Part shown: positions 3,347 to 57,017 of the stretch, piece after piece
Numbering within the stretch: the stretch's first letter is position 1
Layout: each line of letters begins with the position of its first letter
From: Ilumatobacter sp.
Lineage (GTDB): Bacteria; Actinomycetota; Acidimicrobiia; Acidimicrobiales; Ilumatobacteraceae
DNA length: 64,000 nt
Assembly: GCF_030065885.1 (NCBI RefSeq)
Contig: NZ_JASJCS010000001.1
Coordinates: 1 to 64,000, forward strand
Direction of reading: 5' to 3'
The notes under the pieces: generated by a model
What the model was told of the DNA's origin: nothing
The model's database searches: none
The model's input: only the letters and a program-made list of their open reading frames with translations
Made by a program: the position numbers and the translations under genes

Positions 3347-4951
3347 CTACGTCAGAGATCCGAACGGTGCAACGAGTGGGTGGGGGTCGCCCCCCAGGAT
3401 CACCGTGATCTCCTTTCGCGCACGGGTGAGTACGACGTACAACAGGCGTGATGCCTCAGGAAATGGCTCGACCTCCCTGCCGTGAAAGTCGCTGTCGCTG
3501 AACAGGATCACCACAGCGTCCGACTCGCGGCCCTTCGTTTGGTGGAGGTTCATGACTTGTACGGCGGGGGAGCGCCTTCTCCGACTGTCGAACATGGCGC
3601 TCGCTCGCATCTGGCCAATTGCTGCGGCCAAGTCGTCTAGGTGCCGCTCCCCCCGACCTTCGGTGCGCTTGCAGAGTGAGATGAACGAAGGTGCGGACCG
3701 TTCCCACGGCGCATTGCCGGCGACGACGCCGAGCGACGTCCATGCCTCGGCGGCCACCGCCGCTACCTCTGCGAGCGACTCCTCCGCAGCGTTGACAAGA
3801 CTGGCCATGACGCCATCCAGGCGTTCCTCGAGCGCCGACGGCAATGGCGTGTCGGACGCGAGAGCATGAGCCAGCGGCGGCGGGCTGCCACGGGTGCTCG
3901 CGGTTAGGAACGTACCTAGTGCGACCTTGACGTCCGGCCATTCGGCCTCGCGATAGGCGTAGCGTGTGGAGGCAAGCATCGCGTAGAGCGCGTCGGCCTC
4001 CGCATCGGGCAGTCCAACGAGTTCGTGCTCGACATTCGCGTCGGCGAGCTGCAACGAGAGCTCGGCGACACTTTGGTTGCTGTGGGCGAACACCCCGAAT
4101 GTGCGGCACCCGCGTTGCCAGGCCCCGTCGAGCGTGCCCCCGATCAGCTCAACGACTCCGTCGTCCTCAACACCAGAGTGAATCCGCAAACGACCCTCGG
4201 CGATCGCGTCGCGAACTGATTCGTCACCAAATCGCCGCTCTCGGATTGAGCTCGCGAGCGCTGGGATCGCGCCAGTTGGATCGCGATGGGAGACCTGCTC
4301 GAGCTCGACAACTCGGTCGACCAACGTAGCTGTGTCGCGGATCCGTCCGGGTTGGACTCCCTTGTGAGCGAGGAACCCGAAGATCGACTGATGCTCATCG
4401 CCAAGGAGCATCAAGCGCGAAGACACCCGGAGCATGCTCAGCAAGTCCCAATGCTCATCCCCTGTGTCCTGAAACTCATCGCAGACCACCATGCACCACC
4501 GTTGAGCGAACAGGCCCGCAACAGCGGGTGTCTCCAGCACACGGAGTGCCAAGGGCATCAGGTCGTCGTAGACAAGTCGGTCCACTGACTGGCCAAGGAG
4601 CTTCGCTTCGGAGGCAGACTGAACTGTCGGATTGCGCTCGGTGACGCCCGCAAGGTGCCCAAAACGTCTCAGGATGCGGTAAGCGAATGAATGAAACGTC
4701 GACACCTCGATCCGACTCTCGATGCCGGAGACCACAGCTTTCGACCTCGTTGCGATCTGGTCGACGGCCGTTCGGGAAAACGTGAGAAAGAGCGCTCGGC
4801 TACCGGCGTTCTCGGGCCGCTCCAACTCGGTGCGAGCTGCCCAGAGCGCCAACGACGTCTTTCCGGTGCCCGCTCCACCGATCACTAGGAGGGCGTTCTC
4901 GCGTGCGTCGACCGCTTCGCGCTGCTTGGCCGTGAGATCCGACCGATTCAC
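3347..4951 (-). CDS. gajB: UvrD/PcrA-like superfamily 1 helicase, GajB-like (Gabija)
   Basis: 534 residues. SF1A helicase motifs appear in order: Walker A 'GGAGTGKT' near residue 25, Q-motif 'LTAKQREAV' at the start, 'FLTFSRTAVDQI' (Ia), Walker B 'VVCDEFQD' near 155, 'LLGDEHQSIFGF' (III), 'NLHQTKGRESDAVVI' (V) and 'LYVVLTRAR' (VI). It lacks the large 1B/2B insertions of UvrD and is close to the roughly 500 residues of GajB. The start ATG overlaps the stop of the upstream OLD nuclease gene (ATGA), so the two are cotranslated. In Gabija, GajB senses DNA ends or activity and GajA cuts DNA when nucleotide is depleted. The assignment rests on the gene pair rather than on this gene alone. Confidence 0.8.
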   Translation of the reverse strand: MNRSDLTAKQREAVDARENALLVIGGAGTGKTSLALWAARTELERPENAGSRALFLTFSRTAVDQIATRSKAVVSGIESRIEVSTFHSFAYRILRRFGHLAGVTERNPTVQSASEAKLLGQSVDRLVYDDLMPLALRVLETPAVAGLFAQRWCMVVCDEFQDTGDEHWDLLSMLRVSSRLMLLGDEHQSIFGFLAHKGVQPGRIRDTATLVDRVVELEQVSHRDPTGAIPALASSIRERRFGDESVRDAIAEGRLRIHSGVEDDGVVELIGGTLDGAWQRGCRTFGVFAHSNQSVAELSLQLADANVEHELVGLPDAEADALYAMLASTRYAYREAEWPDVKVALGTFLTASTRGSPPPLAHALASDTPLPSALEERLDGVMASLVNAAEESLAEVAAVAAEAWTSLGVVAGNAPWERSAPSFISLCKRTEGRGERHLDDLAAAIGQMRASAMFDSRRRRSPAVQVMNLHQTKGRESDAVVILFSDSDFHGREVEPFPEASRLLYVVLTRARKEITVILGGDPHPLVAPFGSLT

Positions 4952-6693
4952 AGTTGCTCGACGCCTTCCAGGCGCTGCCTGCCGGCGTCGATGATCTTCT
5001 CGAGCACTGCACGCAACCGAGGTGGCACTCTGCCCCTAGGTAGGAGTTCCACGAACTGTGCGTGAAGACCCCCGCTGCTCTTGAGCGCCTTCTCCACTGC
5101 CTTGCCGAGCGGACGTCCCGAAAGCTCGTCAAGGCCCGAGGGCGGTTGTGCTCCGGTAGCCGAACACACCATCTTCAGGGTCTTGGTGAGGACTCCGTCG
5201 TCGAGCGCACTCACGATCGCTCGCTCGACCGCGAACCCGTCGGGCAGTCTCACGACGCAATCGGCTGCTGCTTCGGCGTCGGCCAGAGCCTGCTCGCCGG
5301 CCTTGCCAGGATCCCCATCGATGACTGCGACCGTGTGAAACCCGAGGTTCCGCGCCAAGCCCGCTAGTCGAACAACCGAAGACGCGCCACCGGAACCATC
5401 CGCTGCGCCAGCATCCACAATCGCGATGCCGAAACTGGCAGGAAGCGGCTCGCCCGACCTTAGGAACCTGCGCCGCGCTAGCGCATCAAGCGCCGCGCGA
5501 TCATGAGGTCCCTCTACGATCGCGACGGTTGCGGCAGACGCAGCGGGGAGCAGCTGCATGCTCAAATGTCTCATTGCGATCCGCTCAGCCCGCGTCGTGG
5601 GCGGGTCCAGCTGCGACGCCAGCCGCCCACCCGACTTGGTATGGAGCCTGACAATCTCCTCGACGCGAAACACGCCCAGCGAGGACGAACGCCGCGTTGA
5701 GATCCACGCCTGACCAGCGTGACGGCGAAGTGTTGCAGATAGGTGCTCAGAACTGATGGGGTCTAGGTCCTCCCCGAAGTCATCAACCAGCAACACCATG
5801 CCTGGCTGTCCGAGCGCCGCTATCGCTTCTCCAGCCTGTACCAGGGCTGTGGAGCTTGCACCATGGCGATGAAGCGGCAAGTGCCCCGGCGGCCCGAGAT
5901 CGATCGCCGGCTGAAGGCTTCGAAGCAACCCCGACAACGAGCCGCCCTCGGGGACGAACTGGACCAAACCGTCATCGTCAGCATCAATCCCGAGCGGTCC
6001 CGCCACCGGCGTAAGCACCTCTCCCACCAGGCTGCTGAGATCAGCTGACTTCGCAAGCACCTCACCGGCTGAAGCAACTGAGTCAACAAGGTTGTCGAAG
6101 TCATCCGCAATGGTTCGGCTTCCAACGCTGTCGAGAAGTCTCCGAAAGTCAGCCCGAGGATGCAGCCGCAGCGGCCGCCGCCTGCTCTCGACGACCGTCA
6201 CGGGAAGCCGGTCGTGGAGACGTTTCGGCACCCTCACGAATGTCCCAGCGGAAGGGTCGCTCTCGTCGGGGAAGTCGACCCAGTGGGTAGCTTGCTCTTG
6301 ATCGGCATCCCACTCCGCGCGGTAGCACAGCCGAAGTACCCACTCCACTTCGGCAGATGAGGCCGCTTCGGTGGGAGGACGCGAACCGAAAAGGTCGGAC
6401 TGCTCGTGGTCCCATGCTTCCAAATGATCGATGAAGTCTTGTTCGAGTTCCGAGCCAAGATCTCCGAGCACAACCTCCACCTCGGCCCGTTGTTCTGTAG
6501 TCGTCATCCAGAAGTCGAGTTCTGAAGGCGTCGTGTATCGGATTGCGTCCGAGGAGAGAACGCGTCGGAGCCCTTCGAGCAGATCGGAGCGGCCGGCTCG
6601 CGGCTCGCCGACCAAGGCGACGTGACCATCAGGCCAGAACGTCAAGTCCTCGAACCCTCGGAACCGCCGCAGCGAAACTCGTAGAACTTGCAC
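4948..6693 (-). CDS. gajA: OLD-family ATPase/TOPRIM nuclease, GajA-like (Gabija)
   Basis: 581 residues, matching the usual GajA length. The N-terminal ABC-type ATPase has a P-loop 'GEPRAGRSD' around residue 32, in which the usual Lys is Arg, and a Walker B 'VLLVDDFGEDLDP' near 305. The C-terminal TOPRIM domain has the invariant Glu in 'AIVEGPHD' (about 385) and the DxD in 'AVIDGDPGK' (about 460). OLD nucleases use these acidic residues to bind two metals for DNA cleavage. It is followed directly by the UvrD-like helicase, the gene order of Gabija systems. The Arg-for-Lys change suggests weak or altered ATP hydrolysis; in Gabija, nucleotide binding restrains the nuclease. Sub-family assignment is by architecture and neighbour. 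Confidence 0.8.
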   Translation of the reverse strand: MQVLRVSLRRFRGFEDLTFWPDGHVALVGEPRAGRSDLLEGLRRVLSSDAIRYTTPSELDFWMTTTEQRAEVEVVLGDLGSELEQDFIDHLEAWDHEQSDLFGSRPPTEAASSAEVEWVLRLCYRAEWDADQEQATHWVDFPDESDPSAGTFVRVPKRLHDRLPVTVVESRRRPLRLHPRADFRRLLDSVGSRTIADDFDNLVDSVASAGEVLAKSADLSSLVGEVLTPVAGPLGIDADDDGLVQFVPEGGSLSGLLRSLQPAIDLGPPGHLPLHRHGASSTALVQAGEAIAALGQPGMVLLVDDFGEDLDPISSEHLSATLRRHAGQAWISTRRSSSLGVFRVEEIVRLHTKSGGRLASQLDPPTTRAERIAMRHLSMQLLPAASAATVAIVEGPHDRAALDALARRRFLRSGEPLPASFGIAIVDAGAADGSGGASSVVRLAGLARNLGFHTVAVIDGDPGKAGEQALADAEAAADCVVRLPDGFAVERAIVSALDDGVLTKTLKMVCSATGAQPPSGLDELSGRPLGKAVEKALKSSGGLHAQFVELLPRGRVPPRLRAVLEKIIDAGRQRLEGVEQL

Positions 6694-6867: not shown

Positions 6868-7428
6868 CTAGTTGGCCGAGGAAGAACCCAGGTCCTCTCG
6901 CTCCATCCATGCGTCGTGGAACTTCTGAGCGTCCCGGACTCGCCGATTTACGGCCCACCGGCGTTGACGAGACGGTGTGCGGCCCTCGGAGTAGGCATAG
7001 GCAATCGCCTTGTCGAGCGCAACTCGTAGCTGATCAGCACGGTCAAGAAACTTTTGCCCCGTGGCCGGGTCGGACTTGTAGTGCTGAACGTAGTCACCGA
7101 CTCGCGTCATGAAGTGAAGTCCGTCATCGAGACCAGCGAGGTGGTAGCGCAGCTCAGTGCGCATCCGCTTCAGGGCGTCGCGATGAATGCGCATCCGGGC
7201 GATCCACTCGGAGGTGTCCTGACCGCGTTCAACACGCCGTAGGTAGGTCGTCGAGGTCGCCATGATGCCACTGATGTCCCTAGCGAGCTGCTGGAGAGAT
7301 GGTCCGAGGCCATCTCGATGCGCATTGCGCGCGGGTTGACGCCACCGCATCAGGGCAGCAACCAGAACTCCGACAAGGGCGAGCCCCGCCGTTATCACTG
7401 CCGCAACGACTGTCGGATCCGCCGTCAC
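6868..7428 (-). CDS. Hypothetical membrane-anchored protein
   Basis: 186 residues from the GTG at 7428; the ORF track uses a TTG at 7503 that would run through the promoter of the opposite-strand RNA, so I prefer the shorter form. One N-terminal membrane segment, 'VVAAVITAGLALVGVLVAAL', is followed by a basic stop-transfer 'MRWRQPAR' and a helical, charged cytoplasmic domain ('TYLRRVERGQDTSEWIARMR', 'LRYHLAGLDDGLHFM'). I recognise no catalytic motif. It lies between the Gabija pair and hsdS and is divergent from the structured RNA. A single-TM protein within a defence island could be an effector or accessory factor, but this is inference only. Confidence 0.55.
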   Translation of the reverse strand: MTADPTVVAAVITAGLALVGVLVAALMRWRQPARNAHRDGLGPSLQQLARDISGIMATSTTYLRRVERGQDTSEWIARMRIHRDALKRMRTELRYHLAGLDDGLHFMTRVGDYVQHYKSDPATGQKFLDRADQLRVALDKAIAYAYSEGRTPSRQRRWAVNRRVRDAQKFHDAWMEREDLGSSSAN

Positions 7429-7432
7429 GTCG

Positions 7433-7462
7433 TTGACCGTAGACGGTCGGTCGTGCTTTACT
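7433..7462 (+). promoter_or_regulatory. Predicted sigma70-type promoter for the structured RNA
   Basis: A -35 element TTGACC (7433-7438) is followed by an 18-bp spacer and a -10-like TTTACT (7457-7462). The expected transcription start is about 7468-7470, immediately before the first hairpin of the downstream RNA. The -35 is near consensus; the -10 matches 4 of 6 positions. Confidence 0.5.
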
Positions 7463-7467
7463 TGAGG

Positions 7468-7638
7468 CCAGCCCGGGAGAAGCCCTGGCTGCAGAGAAAC
7501 CAAGGAGGTTTCTGTGATGAGGAATCACATGTGGTCAAGCAGTCCACCAATGCCTGCTTGTCACCGCTGCAGCTAGGGCTCTTATACGGCCCTTTCGGGA
7601 GAGGCCCGGGGATTGTCCCCGGGCCTCTCGAGTTTTTC
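7468..7638 (+). ncRNA. Candidate structured small RNA, about 170 nt, undescribed
   Basis: Between the 5' end of the membrane-protein gene and the 3' end of hsdS lies a chain of hairpins read on the plus strand: CAGCC..GGCTG with inner GGG/CCC (about 7469-7490), AGAAACC-AAGGA-GGTTTCT (7494-7512), TGTGAT-GAGGA-ATCACA (7513-7529), CAAGCAG/CTGCTTG with an 11-nt loop (7536-7560), AGGGC/GCCCT (7575-7593), and a 14-bp terminator stem. Two adjacent hairpins expose purine-rich loops AAGGA and GAGGA. A promoter-like sequence precedes it and an intrinsic terminator ends it, so it looks like a discrete transcript. It does not match 6S, tmRNA, SRP or actinobacterial 6C RNA as I remember them. A 19-codon reading frame with a perfect AAGGAGG lies within it. 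Confidence 0.6.
7599..7637 (+). terminator. Strong Rho-independent terminator
   Basis: A perfect 14-bp stem, GAGAGGCCCGGGGA paired with TCCCCGGGCCTCTC around a TTG loop (7599-7629), is followed by GAG and TTTTT (7633-7637). The T-run is on the plus strand only, so it terminates the structured RNA rather than hsdS. Confidence 0.85.
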
Positions 7639-7695: not shown

Positions 7696-8910
7696 TCATG
7701 CAGAGTGCGGCGCGCCGAGGTCGCCCGTCACGGCGGCCGTGACGAGGGCCCGACGGCGTTCGGCCAAGAGGCCAATATGCCTGGTCAGCGTCGCGACCGT
7801 CCCATCCAGGATCCGCCACGCATCGCGAGTATCAGCGACGATTCGCCGTTGCTGATCGACCGATGGAAGCGGGACACGAAGCGACTTGAAGATCTCCAGG
7901 TTGATCATCTGACGGGTTGACCCTTGGGCACCGAGGCGGAAGCGCTCGGCAGCGCTCGGGGAAGAGCACGCCAGTGCCACGTACTCCGGGTCAGCGACTC
8001 GGCCATCGACGCGTCCGCAGAAGCACTTGCCCTTCACGATTGCCGGGCCGAGATCGGGCGCCACGCAAGCACGACCGGCGTGGTTCCGTTCGTCACCAAG
8101 CGCGGCGGCAAGCAGATCGCCCTCGCGCACCCGATACCTGGTGAACTCCGGTTGGCGCTCGAGTGGGAGGTACACCAGTTCGTCGCCTCGGAACTCGGCG
8201 AAGCCGATGTTGCCGAGGCGAATCACGGCCATCCCGGAGTCCACGTAGTCAGCGGAGCTGAAGGCACTGCCAAACGGTCCGTCCGTCAGGAAGGTCAGCA
8301 TCCGCCGCAGCGGCACCAGGTCAGAGGCACCTTCTGCGGCCAGTTCGTCGAAGGTCCTCCACCGCCGTTCTTCGAGGAGGTGGATTAGTTGTTGCTTCTT
8401 GGCGATCAGGGCGTCGATGCGGGCGGTCTCGGCGTCCAGGTAGTCGGCGATCGCCCGTTGCTCGGCCAGCGGCATGTCTGGGAAGGGGAAGTTCCCGACC
8501 TGTTCCGCGTTGAGGTTGTCCTGCGTGTTGCTGCGAGTCAGCCCGCCAAGCGATGGGCGAAGGTGCTCGAGCCAGTACCGGATGAATCGTTCATCGCTCA
8601 GGCCCGGCCGTGGTGCGATGCCGAGCAGCGCTTGATTCCAGGTCGCCCGGGTGGCGAGACGGCCCACCGCGCCGACGCTCGCGTACATCGCAAACAGCAG
8701 TGTGCCAGGCTGCCCGATGGGCAGCCGCTTTGACTCGACACCGCGCTCAGAGACACGCCGGGCCGTAGCCGAGACCGGCTTGCCATCGGACATGTCCCCG
8801 ATGGACACCCAAGGGACGCCATCGTCCTCCGACTCGCTCCACATGTTCGGGTCGTCGACTGACGGAGTACCACCCGCACGAAGCGAGGCGACCCGCTTCA
8901 GCGTCGTCAC
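7696..8910 (-). CDS. hsdS: Type I restriction-modification specificity subunit
   Basis: 404 residues with the duplicated HsdS layout: a target-recognition domain ('GVPWVSIGDMSDGK'), a first helical spacer ending 'LIAKKQQLIHLLEERR' (about 170-205), a second recognition domain ('LTDGPFGSAF' to 'MINLEIFKSLRVPLP'), and a second helical spacer with 'LLAERRRALVTAAVTGDL'. The PLA/SVxQQR-like conserved segments 'MPLAEQRAIADYLDAE' and 'SVDQQRRIVAD' are diagnostic. It determines the DNA sequence methylated and restricted by the HsdM/HsdR complex. The start ATG overlaps the hsdM stop (ATGA). The gene appears intact. Confidence 0.92.
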   Translation of the reverse strand: MTTLKRVASLRAGGTPSVDDPNMWSESEDDGVPWVSIGDMSDGKPVSATARRVSERGVESKRLPIGQPGTLLFAMYASVGAVGRLATRATWNQALLGIAPRPGLSDERFIRYWLEHLRPSLGGLTRSNTQDNLNAEQVGNFPFPDMPLAEQRAIADYLDAETARIDALIAKKQQLIHLLEERRWRTFDELAAEGASDLVPLRRMLTFLTDGPFGSAFSSADYVDSGMAVIRLGNIGFAEFRGDELVYLPLERQPEFTRYRVREGDLLAAALGDERNHAGRACVAPDLGPAIVKGKCFCGRVDGRVADPEYVALACSSPSAAERFRLGAQGSTRQMINLEIFKSLRVPLPSVDQQRRIVADTRDAWRILDGTVATLTRHIGLLAERRRALVTAAVTGDLGAPHSA

Positions 8911-10982
8911 TCAGTCACCTCACGCAGCAACTCCTGGATCTCCCGCTCGAGCTGCTTGATCTCGGCGTCGATCTCCTCGAGCGGCCGTGGCGGTGTGTGG
9001 ACGTAGAAGTGCCTCGCGAGGGGGATCTCGTAGCCAATCTTGGTCTTGGTGTGGTCGACCCAGGCGTCGGGGACGTAGGGGTGGACCTCCTGCTCGACGT
9101 ACTGCTCGACGGCCTTGACGCAGGTGTCGGTGGCGAGGCGGTCGGTGGGGTCGGGTTCGTAGCGCACCGGGTCGGGCGGGAGAGGGACGTTCTCGTTGTC
9201 GCGCAGGTCGGCGTCGGGCTCGGGGTGGCCGTGCTTGTCGGTGATCGGGTCGGCGTCGGGGTCGCGAAAGGCCAGGGCGTCGACGATGGCGTTCTCGATC
9301 GGTTTGCCCGACAGGTCGAGCTTGGCCATCCAGTGCTTCGCTTCCTGGCGCGCGGCGGCCTCGCTGTCGAAACCTGTCCCGGCGCCTCTGCGGGCGCGTT
9401 CGGCCAGTCCCTCGAGCTGCTGCTCGTCGAGCTTGGCGAGCTTCTTGTCGGACAGCAGCGCGTCCGCGGACGCGTCGGTCACCTCCCACCTCAGGCGGAG
9501 GGGGCGTTCGACCGTGATGCGGAGGAAGCCGAACGACTCGTTGGGGAAGATCTTCACCCGGGCCTCGTCCTCGTTCTGCTGCTGGTCGAAGTTGCCGTAG
9601 AGGCGGACGATCTCGGCGATCTGGGCGTCGCTGACCTCCTTGCGCTTCTCACCGAGGCTCTTGCGCATCTTGGTGAAGTGCGTCCGGGCGTCGATGAGCT
9701 GCACCTTGCCCCGGCGGTTCGGGCTCTTGCGGTTGGTGACGATCCAGAAGTAGGTGGAGATGCCGGTGTTGTAGAAGAGCTGGTCGGGCAGGGCGACCAC
9801 GGCCTCGAGCCAGTCGTGCTCGATGATCCAGCGGCGGATCTCGCTCTCACCGCTGCCGGCCGCGCCGGTGAACAGCGGGGAGCCGTTGAACACGATCGCC
9901 AGGCGCGAGCCGCCCTGCTCGGGCGGGCGCATCTTCGAGATCATGTGCTGGAGGAACAAGAAGCTGCCGTCGTTGATCCGCGGCAGGCCCGCCCCATATC
10001 GGCCGGCGAAACCGAGCGACTCGTGCTCGTGGCGGACCGAGTCGGCGACCTTCTTCCACTCCACCCCGAACGGCGGGTTGGCGAGCAGGTAGTCGAACCG
10101 CTCGTTGGGGTGCTGGTCGCCCTGGTCGCCCGGATCGTCCGGGTCGTGCTGCTTGAGGGAGTTGCCGACCTTGATGTTCGACGCGTTCTGGCCCTTCAGC
10201 ATCATGTCCGACCGGCAGATCGCGTACGACTCCGAGTTCAGCTCCTGGCCGAACACGGTGAGGGTGGCCTGCGGGTTGTGACTGCGGACGAAGTCTTCCG
10301 CCACGCTCAACATGCCACCGGTGCCACACGCCGGGTCGTACAACGTCGCCTTCGCACCCGGCTTGGAGAGGATGTCGTCGTCCTCGATGAACAACAGGTT
10401 CACCATCAGCCGGATGACCTCCCGCGGGGTGAAGTGCTCGCCGGCCGTCTCGTTGCTCAGCTCGGAGAAGCGGCGGATCAGCTCCTCGTAGAGGTAGCCC
10501 ATCTCCAGGTTGGAGACGTGCTCGGGGTGGAGGTCGATCTCGGCGAACTTGCCGAGCACCAGGTACAGCAGCCCCGCCTTGTGGAGCCGGGTGATCTGGG
10601 TGGCGAACTCGAACCGCTCGAGGATCTCCTTCGCCTCGGGCGAGAAGCCGTGGATGTAGTTGAGGAGGTTGTCGCGGATGTTGTCCGGATCGTCGAGCAG
10701 CTTCGGGATGTCGTACGGGCTGATGTTCCAGAGCCCGTCGGTGGTGGTCATCGCGTCGAGGATCGGTGCGAAGTTCTCGACCTTGCCCTGGAGCTGCTCG
10801 TGGCGGGCGAGCATGTCGGCCTTGACCGGGGCGAGCACGCAGTCGAACCGCCGGAGGACCGTGAGCGGAAGGATGACCTTGCCGTACTCCGACTGCTTGT
10901 AGTCGCCGCGGAGCAGGTCGGCCACCGACCAGATGAACGCCGCATGGTTCTTGATCGCCTCGCCGTTCGGCACGCCGGTCAT
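8907..10982 (-). CDS. hsdM: Type I restriction-modification DNA adenine methyltransferase subunit
   Basis: 691 residues from the ATG at 10982 (MTGVPNGEAIKNH); the longer ORF-track start lacks family similarity. The N-terminal helical HsdM domain ('LLRGDYKQSEYGKVILPLTVLRRFD') is followed by '[20 protein letters not shown]', the SAM-binding motif '[10 protein letters not shown]' and the N6-adenine motif IV 'NPPFG'. The C-terminal half carries an acidic, proline-rich stretch and ends in a helical tail ('AEIKQLEREIQELLREV') that probably contacts HsdS. It overlaps hsdS by four bases. A degraded duplicate of its central segment lies at 13050-13517. Confidence 0.93.
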   Translation of the reverse strand: MTGVPNGEAIKNHAAFIWSVADLLRGDYKQSEYGKVILPLTVLRRFDCVLAPVKADMLARHEQLQGKVENFAPILDAMTTTDGLWNISPYDIPKLLDDPDNIRDNLLNYIHGFSPEAKEILERFEFATQITRLHKAGLLYLVLGKFAEIDLHPEHVSNLEMGYLYEELIRRFSELSNETAGEHFTPREVIRLMVNLLFIEDDDILSKPGAKATLYDPACGTGGMLSVAEDFVRSHNPQATLTVFGQELNSESYAICRSDMMLKGQNASNIKVGNSLKQHDPDDPGDQGDQHPNERFDYLLANPPFGVEWKKVADSVRHEHESLGFAGRYGAGLPRINDGSFLFLQHMISKMRPPEQGGSRLAIVFNGSPLFTGAAGSGESEIRRWIIEHDWLEAVVALPDQLFYNTGISTYFWIVTNRKSPNRRGKVQLIDARTHFTKMRKSLGEKRKEVSDAQIAEIVRLYGNFDQQQNEDEARVKIFPNESFGFLRITVERPLRLRWEVTDASADALLSDKKLAKLDEQQLEGLAERARRGAGTGFDSEAAARQEAKHWMAKLDLSGKPIENAIVDALAFRDPDADPITDKHGHPEPDADLRDNENVPLPPDPVRYEPDPTDRLATDTCVKAVEQYVEQEVHPYVPDAWVDHTKTKIGYEIPLARHFYVHTPPRPLEEIDAEIKQLEREIQELLREVTE

Positions 10983-11072
10983 CGTGCCACGTCCCGGCCA
11001 GGGCCGCGACACCCCTCTGGTAGGTTGGCCGTACCGACTTCCCCTCGCATCACACCGATCGAGGAGAACCGA

Positions 11073-11333
11073 ATGACGGTCGACGACCGCACCCGATTGA
11101 ATCTGCACCGAAAGCTCGAAGCGGTGCTCGGACACGACGACGCAGACACGCTCATGGCTCACCTTCCACCCGTCACCTGGCAGGACGTTGCGACCAAAGC
11201 CGACGTCGACGCGGCGTGCGATCGCGTCCGGGTCGAGTTCTCGCAGGCGATGGAGCGGCAGATCCGTTGGATGGTGACGTTCAACACCGCCCTCGTCGCA
11301 GTCGCCCTCGCCGCCGCCCGCCTGCTCTTCTGA
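11073..11333 (+). CDS. Small protein with coiled coil and C-terminal membrane anchor
   Basis: 86 residues, present only as the tail of a long shadow frame in the ORF track. The ATG at 11073 has a clear ribosome site (GAGGAG, 7 nt upstream). The sequence contains 'TLMAHLPPVTWQDVATKADVD', then a heptad-like stretch 'DRVRVEFSQAMERQIRWM', and ends with the hydrophobic helix 'NTALVAVALAAARLLF'. Similar small tail-anchored proteins of unknown function are common in actinobacteria and resemble the coiled-coil DUF1640 type. It is divergent from hsdM and upstream of the acyl-CoA ligase gene. Confidence 0.7.
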   Translation: MTVDDRTRLNLHRKLEAVLGHDDADTLMAHLPPVTWQDVATKADVDAACDRVRVEFSQAMERQIRWMVTFNTALVAVALAAARLLF

Positions 11334-11401: not shown

Positions 11402-13033
11402 ATGACGGCGACAGGGGATTCGACGGAGTTCATCGACGAGGCCGAGGCGATCGCCTCCATGACCACCTCGCGCCCGTCCGGGCACGGGGCGATCCGGGCG
11501 TACGACTGGATCGGGCATCACGCCCGCAACCGTCCCGACCACGAAGCCGTCCGCGATCTCGGCACCGACCGCACCTTCACCTACGCCGAGCTCGACCGGC
11601 GGATCGACGCGATGGCCGCCTACCTCACCTCGCTCGGCATCGGCCGCGGCGACCGGATCGGCGTGCTCGCCCACAACGGCGTCGAATACTTCGACATCCA
11701 GTTCGCATGCGCCCGCACCGGATCGATTTGTGTCCTGCTCAACTGGCGGCTCACCGTCACCGAGCTCGAGTACATCGTCGGCGACTCGTCCCCGATGCTG
11801 CTCGTCCACGACACCGAGTTCGCCGCCACCGCCACCGAGCTCCAACAGCGCTGCCACATCGCCACCCTCCTCGAGATCGACGGTGGCACCCCCGACAGCG
11901 CCTACGAGACCGTCCTCGCCGAACACACCGGCACGCCCGTCACACCGCACACCCTCACCCACGACGACGTGATCACGATCATGTACACGTCCGGCACCAC
12001 CGGGCTGCCGAAGGGGGCGATGATCACCCACGGCATGAACTTCTGGAACTGCGTCAACCTCGGCGTCCCCGCGGGGATCGGCATCGACACGGTCCACCTC
12101 AACATCCTCCCCCTGTTCCACACCGGCGGGCTGAACTGCTACAGCAACCCGGTGCTCCACGCCGGCGGCACCGTCGTCATCCTCAAGACCTTCGACCCGG
12201 GCGAGACGCTGCTGGTGCTCGGCGACCCCGACCAGGGGATCACCCACTTCTTCGGGGTGCCGGCGCCGTACCAGTTCATGATGCAGCACCCCGACTTCGA
12301 CACGACCGACCTCTCCCGGCTCCGCATCGCCGGCGTCGGCGGGGCACCGTGCGCGCTGACGATCATGGAACGCTGGACCGAGCGGGGCGTGCTCCTCGCC
12401 CAGGGGTTCGGGATGACCGAGACCAGCCCCGCCTGCATCTTCCTCGACCCGAGCGACGCGCTCCGCAAGATCGGCTCGACCGGCAAGGCGCTGATGCACA
12501 CCGAATTCCGGATCGTCAACGAGTCGGGCTCGGATTGCGGGCCGGACGAGGTCGGTGAGCTGTGGGTCGCCGGGCCGAACATCACCCCCGGCTACTGGAA
12601 CCGGCCCGACGCCACCGCCGCCGCGTTCGAGGGCCGCTGGCTCAAGACCGGCGACGCCGCCCGCATCGACGACGAGGGGTTCGTCTACATCGTCGACCGC
12701 TGGAAGGACATGTACATCTCCGGCGGCGAGAACGTCTACCCCGCCGAGGTCGAGAACGTCCTGTACCAGCTGCCGGCCGTGGCGGAGGCGGCCGTGATCG
12801 GCGTGCCGAGCGAGCGGTGGGGCGAGACCGGCCTGGCCGTGATCGCGTTGAAGGAGGGCGAATCACTGGATCGCCAGCAGGTCCAGGAGTACTGCGCCGA
12901 GAGGCTGGCCAAGTTCAAGGTCCCAGCCGACATCGCCATCATCGAGGCTCTGCCGAGGAACGCCACGGGCAAGGTGTTGAAGCGCGAACTGAGAGACCAG
13001 TTCGTCGGCACCGGCGAACCGGCGATCACGTAG
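11402..13033 (+). CDS. Acyl-CoA synthetase (AMP-binding, FadD-like)
   Basis: 543 residues with complete ANL-superfamily motifs: P-loop '[16 protein letters not shown]' near 195, '[10 protein letters not shown]' near 340, '[19 protein letters not shown]' near 415, the hinge region '[20 protein letters not shown]', and the catalytic Lys in '[13 protein letters not shown]' at the C-terminus. It activates a fatty or other carboxylic acid as an acyl-adenylate and transfers it to CoA. It is not part of the NRPS cluster 30 kb away. The gene ends about 20 bp before a degraded hsdM copy, suggesting that rearrangement occurred just downstream. Chain-length specificity cannot be read from the sequence. 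Confidence 0.85.
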
Positions 13034-13049
13034 CGCTGCGCCGTATGGG

Positions 13050-13517
13050 GCTGCCGTCGTAGCAGCGGCAGGCCCGTACCGACCGGCAAGGCCGAGCGAC
13101 TCGTGCTCGTGCTTGACCGAGTCGGCGACCTTCTTCCACTCCACCCCGAACGGCGGGTTGGCGAGCAGGTAGTCGAACCGCTCGTTCGGGTGCTGGTCGC
13201 CCTGATCGTCCGGGTCGTACTGCTTGAGGGAGTTGCCGACCTCGAGTTCGACGCGTTCTGGCCCTTCAGCATCATGTCCGACCGGCAGATCGCGTACGAC
13301 TCCGAGTTCAGCTCCTGGCCGAAGACGGTGAGGGTGGCCTGCGGGTTGTGACTGTGGACGAAGTCCTCCGCCACGCTCAACATGCCACCGGTGCCACACG
13401 CCGGGTCGTACAACGTCGCCTTGGCACCCGGCTTGGAGAGGATGTCGTCGTCCTCGATGAACAACAGGTTCACCATCAGCCGGATGACTTCCCGCGGGGT
13501 GAAGTGCTCACCGGCCG
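13050..13517 (-). pseudogene. Degraded duplicate of the central hsdM segment
   Basis: This stretch is nearly identical to 9963-10447 within hsdM, in the same orientation, covering the residues from '[13 protein letters not shown]' through 'DPACGTGG' to '[11 protein letters not shown]'. It differs by scattered substitutions, a 9-bp deletion (loss of one 'gtcgcccgg'-like unit) and a 1-bp deletion that shifts the frame. It lacks both ends of the gene. Immediately to its right lies a perfect hairpin GCCGTGTTG-GCA-CAACACGGC (13533-13553), then the second 13E12-family gene. The copy cannot encode a methyltransferase. It is probably a remnant of duplication or of a second restriction locus. Confidence 0.85.
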
Positions 13518-13634
13518 CCGTTCGGCACGGCCGCCGTGTTGGCACAACACGGCCGCGACCGCCGTCCGACGACGGAGCGTGCGCTGAGACGAATCGAACA
13601 TCAGTTCGAAACTGTGTCACACCCCCTCGTCAAG

Positions 13635-14864
13635 ATGGGCGGCATGGAGATCGGCACCGTCATCGAGCACGTGCGGCACGTGGCCGACGTGCGCACCGAT
13701 GGCACGGCACCGACCGAACGGCTCGAGTCGGCGTTGCGAGATGTGGGCCGTCTGGAGGCCTGGTTGGCAGGCACCAAGGCGGCGCTCACCTCCCTGCTGG
13801 CAGCGCAGGTGTCGTTCCCTGAGAAGACGATCGCCGACTGCACGCGTGGCTCGACCCGCGACGCGATCAACGACACCGCCCGCGCCGGAACGTTGGACGC
13901 GGCGCCGTCGCTGGCCGACGCGCTCGACGATGCCCGCGTCACCGTCGGCCACGTCGACGCCGTCACCAAGGCCACCAAATCGCTCGACGCCGACCAGCGC
14001 GACGAGCTGCTCGGCCGGCTCGACACGGGGCTGCTCGACATCGCCGCCGTCGCAACGGTGGCCGAGTGGCGCCGACGGCTGGCGATGGAGGTCAACAACA
14101 TCCAGCGCGACGACGGCATCGACCGGTTCGAACGCCAGCAGCGAGCGACGAGCGTGCGGAGTTGGACCGACGGCGAGGGAATGTGGTGCCTGTCGGGTCG
14201 GTTCGACCCGGTGACCGGCGTGAAGCTGTCGGCTGCGATCGACGCCGCCACCAACGCGCTGTTCGCCGAGCAGACGCCGACTACCTGCCCCACCGACCCG
14301 GTCGAGAAGCAGCGACACCTGAACGCTCTGGCGCTGGCGGGCCTGATCACCGACGCCGGCGGCACTGGGCGGCCGGGGCGGCCCGAGTACGTGGTGGTCG
14401 TCGACACCTCGCAGCCCGACGGCGCTGGCGGGCCCGAGGTCGACTGGGGGATTCCCGTCGAGGTGCCGCACCGCGTGCTGGCCGAGCTGATGGGCGACGG
14501 CCGGGTCGAGACCGTGATCGTCCGCAACCGCGTCGTGCTCCACGCACCGGGCGAACTGAACCTCGGCCGCACCACCCGCCTCGCCAACCGAGCCCAGCGT
14601 CGGGCGCTGCGGGCGCTGTACTCCAGCTGCGCGATCCCCGGCTGCGACGTGCGTTACGACCGCTGCAAGCTCCACCACATCGTGTGGTGGCGAAACGGCG
14701 GGCGCACCGACCTCGACAACCTGTTGCCCGTCTGCACCCACCACCACACCAAGATCCACGACGCCGGTTGGCAGGTCTCGCTCGGCGCCAACCGCGAGCT
14801 CACCATCACCTTCCCCGACGGCACCATTCACAACACCGGCCCACCCAGCCGCCGGGCTGCGTGA
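13635..14864 (+). CDS. DUF222 / 13E12-family HNH endonuclease
   Basis: 409 residues. The helical DUF222 region spans about 1-290, followed by a canonical HNH domain: 'CAIPGCDVRYDRCKLHHIVWWRNGG', 'DLDNLLPVCTHHHTKIHDAGW'. The HH pair, the central Asn and the CxxH-type zinc ligands are all present, so this copy looks catalytically intact, more so than the one at 710-1720. I take the ATG at 13635; another ATG three codons on (13644) is possible. The upstream bases 'cgtcaagatgggcggc' closely match a segment at 2376-2393 near the first copy. It lies directly after the hsdM remnant, in line with this family's known association with repeats and insertion sites. Confidence 0.85.
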   Translation: MGGMEIGTVIEHVRHVADVRTDGTAPTERLESALRDVGRLEAWLAGTKAALTSLLAAQVSFPEKTIADCTRGSTRDAINDTARAGTLDAAPSLADALDDARVTVGHVDAVTKATKSLDADQRDELLGRLDTGLLDIAAVATVAEWRRRLAMEVNNIQRDDGIDRFERQQRATSVRSWTDGEGMWCLSGRFDPVTGVKLSAAIDAATNALFAEQTPTTCPTDPVEKQRHLNALALAGLITDAGGTGRPGRPEYVVVVDTSQPDGAGGPEVDWGIPVEVPHRVLAELMGDGRVETVIVRNRVVLHAPGELNLGRTTRLANRAQRRALRALYSSCAIPGCDVRYDRCKLHHIVWWRNGGRTDLDNLLPVCTHHHTKIHDAGWQVSLGANRELTITFPDGTIHNTGPPSRRAA

Positions 14865-33893: not shown

Positions 33894-33925
33894 GCCTCGA
33901 CGTCCTCGACGTGCTCGCCGGCACT

Positions 33926-33964
33926 TCCCTCCGGAGGTGGGTCTCGACTCCGCCTCCGGAGGGA
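33926..33964. promoter_or_regulatory. 12-bp inverted repeat made of two CCTCCGGAGG palindromes
   Basis: TCCCTCCGGAGG (33926-33937) and CCTCCGGAGGGA (33953-33964) are reverse complements with a 15-nt spacer. Each contains the 10-bp palindrome CCTCCGGAGG, and the copies are 25 bp apart centre to centre. They lie 32 bp after the permease stop and 40 bp before the kinase start. With no T-run, an operator for the downstream regulator or an RNA processing hairpin is more likely than a terminator. Confidence 0.5.
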
Positions 33965-34003
33965 TGACCCGCGTCCGGCACCGGTTTAGCGTGGAGATCA
34001 ACC

Positions 34004-35323
34004 ATGACGACCGTCAACCACCCGCACGACACCGGCGCACCGGCGCCACGGCGGATCTCCGCCCTCGCGGCGCGGTTCGACGCGGGCGAACCCCACCCCA
34101 CCCGCGGGCCGTTCACCCGCTGGCCACACGCCGCCGACGGCGCCCTCGCCGTGATCGTCTTCGCGGCAGCCGTGATCTCGGTCGCCGTCAGCGAGCTCGC
34201 CGACGGCGACACGTTCGGCGCCGCGGCGATCGGCGATCTTCCGGCAGGTGCGTTCGTGCTGCTGGCCGTCGCCGCGGCCGCGCTGTGGTGGCGGCGAGCC
34301 CGGCCCGTTGCGGTGACGGCGTCCGTGCTCGCCGTCATGATCGTCTGGGCGCTGGCCGGCTACGGGGACGGCCACGACGTCATCCTGGTCGTCGCCGTCT
34401 ACAGCGTCGGCCGCCACAGCACCGACCACCGCCACAGCCTCGCGGTCCTCGCCGCCGCCTTCTCCGTCAGCTTCCTCGGCTCCGTCATCGACAGCGACCA
34501 GCGGATCGACGTGTGGCCCGCCGTGATCTTCATCGGACTGCCGTGGTACGTCGGCCGCCGGATTCGCAATCGCGGCGACTACCTCGCCTTGCTGCAGGAG
34601 CGTGCCGAGCGCCTCGAAGCCGAGCAACATGCCCGCGCGCGCGAGGCCGTCGCCGCCGAACGTTCCCGGATCGCACGCGAGCTCCACGACGTTGTCGCCC
34701 ACCAGGTCTCGATGATGACGGTGCAAGCCGGTGCCGCCAGGACGATCGCTCGTGACGACCTCGACACCGCCATCGAGGCGATGGGCGACGTCGAGCATGC
34801 CGGCCGCAAGGCGATCGGCGAGCTCCGACATCTCCTCGGCGTGCTCCGCCACGACGGTGCCGAGCCCGACGACGACCGCGACCGCCTCGGCCCGCAGCCC
34901 GGGCTCGACGACGTCCCCACACTCGTGGAACAGCTCTCGCACACCGGCGCCGACGTCACCCTCACGCTCGCGGACCTCCCCGACCACCTCAACAGGGCGG
35001 TCGATCTCTCCGCCTACCGCATCGTCCAGGAGTCGTTCACCAACATCGTCAAGCACGCCGGACCCGACCCGACCGTCGAGCTCTCCGTTGCGCTCGACGG
35101 CGACACGCTCGCCATCGGCATCACCAACACCATCACCAACACCATCGGCACGACCATCGCAACCACCGCCACCGCAGCTGCGACGCTCCCGCAGTCCGGA
35201 TACGGCATCGCCGGCATGCGCGAACGAGCCAGTCTCCTCGGCGGCACCCTCACCGCCGGACCGCGCCCGCCCGACCGCTACCACGTCGCTGCCCGCCTGC
35301 CCGTCGAACCGGATCCCACATGA
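34004..35323 (+). CDS. Sensor histidine kinase (NarL/DesK type)
   Basis: 439 residues. Several membrane helices fill the N-terminal 180 residues ('GALAVIVFAAAVISVAVSELA', 'AFVLLAVAAAALWW', 'VTASVLAVMIVWALAGY'). A coiled linker 'LLQERAERLEAEQHARAREAV' leads to the phosphoacceptor 'RIARELHDVVAHQVSMMTVQ', and the ATPase domain has 'VQESFTNIVKHAG' and 'GYGIAGMRERASLLGG'. A low-complexity Thr/Ile repeat (ITNTITNTIGTTIATT) lies inside the ATPase domain. The downstream regulator overlaps its stop (ATGA). It probably regulates the adjacent ABC exporter. Confidence 0.88.
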   Translation: MTTVNHPHDTGAPAPRRISALAARFDAGEPHPTRGPFTRWPHAADGALAVIVFAAAVISVAVSELADGDTFGAAAIGDLPAGAFVLLAVAAAALWWRRARPVAVTASVLAVMIVWALAGYGDGHDVILVVAVYSVGRHSTDHRHSLAVLAAAFSVSFLGSVIDSDQRIDVWPAVIFIGLPWYVGRRIRNRGDYLALLQERAERLEAEQHARAREAVAAERSRIARELHDVVAHQVSMMTVQAGAARTIARDDLDTAIEAMGDVEHAGRKAIGELRHLLGVLRHDGAEPDDDRDRLGPQPGLDDVPTLVEQLSHTGADVTLTLADLPDHLNRAVDLSAYRIVQESFTNIVKHAGPDPTVELSVALDGDTLAIGITNTITNTIGTTIATTATAAATLPQSGYGIAGMRERASLLGGTLTAGPRPPDRYHVAARLPVEPDPT

Positions 35324-55325: not shown

Positions 55326-57017
55326 TCAGCCGACCAGGAGGCCGTCCTCGAGGCGCACGAGGCGAGGACAGGCTGCGAGCGCGGACTCGCGGTGCGACAC
55401 GACGATCGCCGCGCACGACTCACCGAGCGCGTCGATCGTCTTCGTGACCACTTCCTCCGCGGCACGGTCGAGTGCGCTGGTCGGCTCGTCCATCACCAGC
55501 AGCGACGGGCGACCGGCCAGCGCTCGGGCGATGCACACGCGCTGGCGTTGCCCACCCGACAGCGCCCGGACCCCGCGATCGCCGACGACCGTCTCGTACC
55601 CCTGCGGCCACGACATGATCTCGTCGTGGATGCCGACGGCCGCCGCGGCCTCCTCGATCGATTCGTCGGTCACGTGCGTCCGGAACAGGCGGATGTTCTC
55701 GCGCACGGTCGCCGTGATCAGCACCGGCGTCTGCGGGACGGCCGCCACCTGGCGTGACCACGATGCCAGCGAGAAGTCGGTCGACTCGTGGCCGTTGACG
55801 GTGACCCGCCCCGCCTCGGGTTCGAGCAGTCCGAGCAGGATCGCCAGCACGGTCGACTTGCCGGCGCCGGACGGCCCGACGATGCCGACCTTCTCGCCCG
55901 CGCCGACGACGAGATCGACGCGATCGAAGATCGGGGGCTGAGCGGCGTCGTAGCGGAACTGGACCGCCTCGAGCTCGACCCGCTCGACAGGTGCGAGCTC
56001 GACGTCGCCGGTGACGAACCGGCTCTGCCGGTAGTGCTCGAGCCGTGCGTTCACCTCGTGGACGAACGGGAGCGACTCCTGGACGGCGAGCGCCGAGGCG
56101 TGGATCGTCCGGCTCTCGAGGAGCGCGCGGACCATCAGCAGCACGACCGTCGTGGCGGCGGCGAGACGGATGTCGCCCCAGGTCAGCAACGCGCCGAGCC
56201 CCCCGAGCAGGACGGCGAACACCAGCGACCGGTACAGGGTCGGCGTCGTCAGCTTCAGCACCCAGCCCCGGTACGCGAGGTGCGACACGCGTTCGGCCTC
56301 GACCTCGAGGCGAGCCGCAGCGTCGTCGACGGTGCCGAAGAAGCGGTACTCCTTCGCCGCGTTCAACATCTCGTTCGAGTTCCGCCCGTAGTCGAGGCTC
56401 GCTTGTCCCTGCTCGTGTCCGATCCGCTGCGCCATCCGCTGCACGGGCAACATCAACAACAGGAAGACGCCGGCGATCAGGCCGATCGCCACGAACGCCA
56501 CGGCGTCCACCACCGCGGCGGCGACAGCGAGCACGAGCAGCATCGTGATCGAGGAGATCGCGTTGGCGGCGGAGTATCCGACCAGCCCGACCCGAATTGC
56601 ATGCGTCATCAACAGGTCCTGCGTCAGCCCGACCGGCTCGCTCTGCTGCCGGGTGAACGAGGCGTCGAGGTAGCCGCGGGTCAGGCGATCACGCACGCAG
56701 GAGATCGGGAACGCACCCATCCGTGAGATCACGCGGGCCTCGACGACGCGCAGCACGATCACTGCGACCGTCGCTGCGAGCCCGCCGATGACGAGCGCCG
56801 CCACCGAGCGGCTGCCGAGCACCGGCAGGTCGGCGGCACCGTTGTCGCCGCCCGATTCGACGCTGGCGGCGAGCGAGCCGATCGATGCGAGCACGCCGGC
56901 CTCGAGGACACCCGCCACGCCGCCGATGACCACGAGACCGAGACCGAGCGAGCGATGGTTGCGAGGCAGGAACGGCGCCAGTGCGGCCAACCCGCTCTTC
57001 GACCCTGCGGGCTCCAT
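55326..57017 (-). CDS. ABC exporter, fused membrane and ATPase domains (MsbA/LmrA type)
   Basis: 563 residues. The N-terminal half has about six helices ('LGLGLVVIGGVAGVLEAGVLASIG', 'VAALVIGGLAATVAVIVLRVVEA', 'SITMLLVLAVAAAVVDAVAFVAIG'). The ATPase has Walker A 'GIVGPSGAGKSTVLAILLG', 'GVRALSGGQRQRVCIARAL' (signature), Walker B 'LLVMDEPTSALD' and 'IVVSHRES' (H-loop). It begins the minus-strand gene run of the NRPS cluster and is the obvious candidate for export of, or self-resistance to, the product. Confidence 0.87.
   Translation of the reverse strand: MEPAGSKSGLAALAPFLPRNHRSLGLGLVVIGGVAGVLEAGVLASIGSLAASVESGGDNGAADLPVLGSRSVAALVIGGLAATVAVIVLRVVEARVISRMGAFPISCVRDRLTRGYLDASFTRQQSEPVGLTQDLLMTHAIRVGLVGYSAANAISSITMLLVLAVAAAVVDAVAFVAIGLIAGVFLLLMLPVQRMAQRIGHEQGQASLDYGRNSNEMLNAAKEYRFFGTVDDAAARLEVEAERVSHLAYRGWVLKLTTPTLYRSLVFAVLLGGLGALLTWGDIRLAAATTVVLLMVRALLESRTIHASALAVQESLPFVHEVNARLEHYRQSRFVTGDVELAPVERVELEAVQFRYDAAQPPIFDRVDLVVGAGEKVGIVGPSGAGKSTVLAILLGLLEPEAGRVTVNGHESTDFSLASWSRQVAAVPQTPVLITATVRENIRLFRTHVTDESIEEAAAAVGIHDEIMSWPQGYETVVGDRGVRALSGGQRQRVCIARALAGRPSLLVMDEPTSALDRAAEEVVTKTIDALGESCAAIVVSHRESALAACPRLVRLEDGLLVG

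Follow-up and report, generated by a model that had tools for sequence, protein, structure and literature searches.

Genomic setting and candidate transcription signals

Does the short segment between hsdS and an orphan gene for a single-TM protein in this Ilumatobacter genome encode a small RNA, and if so, what could such an RNA do? The window, i.e., the whole stretch of 64,000 nucleotides that was analysed, comprises the first 64 kb of a 136-kb contig in a draft genome of 5.0 Mb (91% complete). It contains a type I restriction locus that is interrupted between hsdS and hsdR by Gabija-like cargo (Table 1), and the gap between these two genes is a known insertion site of defence genes (PMC12255303). 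The segment is located at the hsdS edge of the cargo, with its signals on the forward strand, and between 3347 and 11162 all protein genes that were identified are encoded on the reverse strand. A search of 395 genomes of the class gave no GajA relative at E <= 1e-10, which fits a recent acquisition. The same hsdS-hsdR interval also carries the orphan TM gene as well as forward-strand genes (DUF222, DUF1828/PDC-M24B-like). Beyond hsdM, a reverse-strand ORF at 12736-13620 shows a partial N6-methylase match and may be a methylase fragment; it overlaps the forward-strand AMP-ligase (11402-13033) and DUF222-HNH (13536-14864) genes.

In a preliminary description of this DNA, a promoter TTGACC-N18-TTTACT and a perfect 14-bp terminator with T5 were claimed, and both sequences are indeed present, although the -10 element is poor. 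The candidate promoter is a 9/12 match, one of six sites reaching at least 9/12 on the two strands of the whole window. A stricter promoter scan rejects it, as the -10 element lacks the A at position 2 that is normally its most conserved base. The neighbouring TM gene is a candidate for a leaderless start, as it has no Shine-Dalgarno (SD) sequence and a TANNNT box, which suggests such a start, is located 7 nt ahead of the GTG. The palindrome GACCG-TAGA-CGGTC (7435-7448) overlaps both the -35 element of the RNA and the candidate -10 element of the divergent TM gene, and it could be a shared operator. As for the terminator, its T-tail points forward amid reverse-strand genes, and a short forward transcript is therefore needed to explain it. 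Pairing of 7466-7479 with the terminator, as in antitermination, was considered and rejected, since the pairs that are possible by eye are far weaker than the 14-bp hairpin. Judging from these signals, the segment probably makes a small forward-strand RNA of ~170 bases.

Such an RNA might be non-coding and serve only as an antisense or insulator, pairing or colliding with hsdMS read-through and thereby separating the two defence operons. Its position exactly between hsdS and the TM gene, in the opposite direction, is consistent with this role, as are its full complementarity to any read-through RNA and the overlap of its promoter with the palindrome and the candidate leaderless promoter of the TM gene. 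However, there is no evidence for read-through and the TM gene apparently has its own start, while the SD/AUG pair and the elaborate four-way junction discussed below would be left unexplained. We thus consider this role rather unlikely.

Table 1. Coordinates of the features discussed, numbered from the first letter of the window.
Feature	Position	Strand	Remarks
HsdR N-terminus	620 to 3	-	runs off contig start
GajB-like gene	3347-4951	-	
GajA-like gene	4948-6693	-	
186-aa N-terminal single-TM protein	6868-7428	-	orphan; candidate leaderless start TACGGT-N7-GTG, without SD
Candidate promoter TTGACC-N18-TTTACT	7433-7462	+	TTGACC 7433-7438, TTTACT 7457-7462; overlaps palindrome 7435-7448
Predicted ~169-nt transcript	7469-7637	+	from promoter spacing and terminator; fold z -7.7
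Closing stem, 5' strand AGCCCUGGCUGCAG	7481-7494	+	computed fold
Arm 1, AGAAACC-AAGGA-GGUUUCU	7495-7513	+	loop AAGGA 7502-7506 carries SD core; unpaired probability 1.0
SD AAGGAGGU	7502-7509	+	exact complement of 16S anti-SD ACCUCCUU
Arm 2, GUGAU-GAGGA-AUCAC	7514-7528	+	loop GAGGA 7519-7523; holds start codon and second GGA loop
Mini-ORF, 19 codons, MRNHMWSSSPPMPACHRCS*	7517-7576	+	ATG 7517 (or GTG 7514), stop TAG 7574-7576
Arm 3 (long), GUGG-U-CAAGCAG-(11-nt loop)-CUGCUUG-UCAC	7531-7564	+	computed fold
Closing stem, 3' strand CUGCAGCUAGGGCU	7567-7580	+	computed fold; contains mini-ORF stop TAG 7574-7576
Intrinsic terminator	7599-7637	+	perfect 14-bp stem (7599-7629), 3-nt loop, T5 at 7633-7637
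hsdS	7696-8910	-	
hsdM	8907-11162	-	

Fold of the element and its strand

The structural element is real. The predicted transcript folds at -94.3 kcal/mol with a z of -7.7 against dinucleotide shuffles, and the longer segment 7433-7638 (forward strand) gives z -6.6. In a forward-strand scan of the 64 kb, 7471-7586 had the top fold z among 2,130 segments of 116 nt, the top ranks being rough with 20 shuffles per segment. Other strong folds (z -5.4 to -6.2) were recorded at 33901-34016, 1711-1826, 55411-55526, and 8131-8246, the last of them within hsdS. The two stems that had been noticed earlier, AGAAACC/GGUUUCU with loop AAGGA and (U)GUGAU/AUCAC(A) with loop GAGGA, are both found in the computed fold. 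The preliminary description also spoke of five successive hairpins; the segment does fold better than chance, but its architecture is a four-way junction, in which a closing stem of ~13 bp encloses three arms, rather than a simple series. The designation as an undescribed structured small RNA is well supported by the sequence.

The reverse strand of the segment also folds well (z -5.8), and the identified neighbouring genes all lie on that strand. A functional RNA could accordingly be sought there, either as a leader or attenuator of TM-gajA-gajB or as an sRNA from the 3'UTR of hsdS. It would present the C-rich anti-SD loops UCCUU and UCCUC, and loops of this type are typical of several sRNAs. 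Nevertheless, the G-U pairs of the closing stem and arm 3 turn into C-A mismatches on the reverse strand, with the loss of two wobble pairs and a weaker fold, and the T-run of the terminator is on the forward strand. We therefore take the forward strand as the likelier structured one. A leader in front of the TM gene would also be at odds with a start that has no SD and for which the TANNNT box suggests leaderless initiation, and a functional RNA on the reverse strand is in our opinion very unlikely.

Ribosome-binding loop and 19-codon reading frame

It had further been suggested that the two loops display GGA motifs to a protein or mimic ribosome sites. The genome does possess CsrA (see below) and loop 1 does look like a genuine ribosome-binding site, but it is probably such a site rather than a mimic. 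Loop AAGGA and the GGU that follows it make up the SD, which is located 7 nt ahead of the ATG at 7517. The anti-SD pattern was not found in the draft genome itself, and the comparison was made with the anti-SD of a genome of the same genus (GGATCACCTCCTTTCT), to which the SD matches at 8/8 positions. Its strength in terms of pairing energy ranks third among the 1136 ATGs of the window, and it is the only AAGGAGGT in the window with a start codon after it. The SD and the 19-codon ORF at this ATG, which are absent from the earlier reading, were spotted after the fact. By one estimate, roughly ten percent of bacterial sRNAs or more contain a coding ORF, and the three features from which such ORFs are predicted include SD strength (PMC5521070). 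Here, a strong SD at proper spacing is present, as would be expected of a translated mini-ORF.

The reading frame itself is less typical of the host. Its codon usage is not host-like (GC3 of 0.58 versus 0.67-0.93 in the neighbouring genes, with the rare codons AAT, TGT, and AGT), and no relative of the peptide is known. A type I toxin was rejected, as the peptide is not hydrophobic. Pairing with the 16S 3' end over more than the SD was also considered and dropped, since the additional blocks would all need the same 16S bases.

In the computed fold, loop AAGGA is always unpaired, while base pairing takes up the GGU of the SD together with most of the AUG. The second GGA loop coincides with codons 1-3 of the mini-ORF. 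The core of the RNA would thus be a translation start region, in which arm 1 exposes the SD in its loop, arm 2 contains the AUG, and the ORF ends in the closing stem. The 30S subunit may dock on the exposed loop, and, given the pairing of the GGU and of most AUG bases, the fold would gate translation of the mini-ORF. Docking would be followed by melting, and translating the mini-ORF would in turn open the whole RNA. The output gated in this way could be the peptide, the stability of the RNA, or titration of the ribosome or CsrA. Our preferred reading is therefore an autonomous forward-strand transcript, ~169 nt long, that has a promoter and a terminator of its own, a four-way junction and a structure-gated mini-ORF of 19 codons, to which we assign a tentative probability of about 0.4. 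The terminator, the SD, and the ORF are seen in the sequence and the fold is computed; transcription, docking, and gating are what we infer.

Regarding its type, the RNA is an orphan case of a known kind, namely small structured transcripts, some of which contain a mini-ORF. Like the dual-function sRNAs (PMC5521070), it is short and has its own terminator, a strong SD and an ORF in the range of 10-50 codons. It differs from them in that the SD lies inside a hairpin of a four-way junction and in being a candidate from sequence alone.

Comparison with known systems

CsrA is the one well-known reader of GGA in hairpin loops. The genome encodes it (84.7 bits) beside FliW, seemingly in a flagellar region. 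CsrA recognises GGA in loops and frequently covers the SD; the two sites that it bridges can lie 10-63 nt apart, a spacing near 18 nt being optimal (PMC7652899). The transcript contains five GGA motifs, two of which are in unpaired loops, 17 nt apart (start to start), and one of these is on the SD. One dimer could bridge this distance, which is near the optimum and comparable to the 21 nt of the flaA leader (PMC4894983, PMC7652899). With regard to chance, loosely defined GGA-loop hairpins are not enriched in the window (51 and 70 seen per strand versus 72 expected), nor are close pairs of them (2 and 2 seen versus 4.5 expected). Pentaloops that conform exactly to RAGGA are rare, with 0.9 expected per strand, and the only close pair of them is at this locus.

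The RNA could also be read as a CsrA-binding one, with a single CsrA dimer occupying both GGA hairpins. It would then titrate CsrA as an sRNA or serve as a leader repressed by CsrA, and the SD match would be part of the CsrA site. The adjoining csrA and fliW genes and the spacing of the motifs are in favor of this, and site 1 matches about 9/12 of the CsrA SELEX consensus, RUACARGGAUGU. However, there are only two sites, of which the one in loop 2 matches the consensus poorly. Loose GGA hairpins often arise by chance, and the pentaloops sit on long stems, while CsrA prefers hexaloops on short ones. Moreover, no CsrA match was obtained in several members of the genus that were searched, some of them incomplete, and an anti-correlation exists between FliW and the regulators driving Csr sponge sRNAs (PMC7652899). 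The sponges CsrB and RsmZ also hold GGA in hairpin loops, but they have many sites, in contrast to the two loop sites of this RNA. A CsrA-binding RNA in this sense appears unlikely.

A close parallel is the flaA leader of Campylobacter jejuni, a species with CsrA and FliW; in this leader, two GGA loops follow one another at a distance of 21 nt (PMC4894983). The likeness lies in the adjacent GGA hairpins about 17-21 nt apart in a genome with CsrA-FliW, with the SD on one of them here. The Ilumatobacter RNA differs by its pentaloops, its stems of 5-7 bp, a mini-ORF that is not flagellin, and a four-way junction followed by a terminator. Within the gated mini-ORF reading, CsrA may bind both loops and compete with the ribosome as in the flaA leader, an optional step by analogy that we consider rather unlikely.

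SymE and SymR adjoin hsdS of E. coli, where SymR is antisense to the start site of the toxin. Our segment would likewise constitute a small RNA gene adjoining hsdS in a restriction island, but the RNA is not antisense to a toxin start and its neighbour is the 186-aa TM protein rather than SymE. CreT, the RNA toxin of CreTA modules, which a resident CRISPR-Cas system represses, is similar in being a small RNA with an SD and a mini-ORF in a defence locus (PMC10097628). In contrast to CreT, neither CreA nor a CRISPR repeat was seen here, there is no tandem rare-codon start, and the ORF has 19 codons instead of about 10. Furthermore, no match to Cas1 was found in the genome, an absence that is not final at 91% completeness. 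A CreT-like guard without CRISPR, in which the perfect SD and mini-ORF would tie up ribosomes (or CsrA) upon de-repression, is highly improbable in our view. De-repression would in that case take place when a phage attacks the flanking restriction system, and would affect the promoter shared with TM-gajAB via the palindrome. More generally, no positive evidence emerged for the roles of RNA antitoxin, sponge, or defence-sensing RNA put forward in the preliminary description, and no reverse transcriptase was detected among the neighbouring proteins with Pfam or PADLOC matches.

Relatives and significance

The Rfam and covariance searches for homologues that had been proposed earlier were carried out and returned none. 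No Rfam family reached its gathering score in the window, and the best sub-threshold match was that of the terminator hairpin alone to sX14 (22/80 bits). Searching plasmids, phages, and 199 relatives with blastn yielded only short coincidences, and in the genome itself the RNA matched only its own single copy and the palindromic terminator. A covariance model derived from this one sequence, with 115 positions and 40 pairs, found this locus alone in 395 genomes of the class and 397 of the phylum, a sample of about 790 genomes, some shared by both sets, in which fast filters can miss weak matches.

Several candidate relatives were discarded. Covariance matches at 19-21 bits (E 0.14-0.43) were attributed to chance, as the closing stem or arm 1 was broken. 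Among the pattern matches in GTDB species, 80 of 85 were read, and none had the fold (best model score 17 bits). None of the viral pattern matches fits, the first 19 having been folded and scored and the later 7 scored (2 folded). Match L003, in a genome of the same family (1501-1524, 24 nt, 96%, arm 3 loop), was judged a coincidence in a coding frame without the RNA fold; the frame, recognised by eye, is presumably that of an aspartate carbamoyltransferase (antisense). Match L004 is a terminator-like hairpin.

The neighbouring genes did not lead to relatives either. The TM protein has none in the 395 class genomes, the GTDB species scan, viral contigs, plasmids, or phages, and three actinobacterial GajAB plasmid loci gave no match to the RNA model. 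Upstream of GajA in the two of these loci that are annotated, no protein is named as TM, the upstream proteins being judged by name and the TM protein having no plasmid match. The lack of a homologue is neither for nor against function, but it weakens the claim of a conserved system.

The single copy without relatives in these searches, the poor codon usage and the poor -10 element would also be compatible with a non-functional leftover or a chance cluster of palindromes, e.g., the remnant of a leader with its terminator whose downstream gene was lost. An abandoned element should have broken pairs, yet about 40 pairs are intact with hardly any decay, the terminator is intact, and the fold z is the best of the scan. 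We therefore disfavour a leftover, which seems distinctly unlikely.

Our literature search retrieved no sRNA study for Ilumatobacter-like Actinomycetota. The interest of the locus is modest until expression is shown. If expressed, it would represent an undescribed small RNA at the border of two nested defence systems. If CsrA binds it, the RNA would also bear on the question, left open by previous work (PMC7652899), of whether one and the same CsrA is ever under the control of both FliW and sRNAs.
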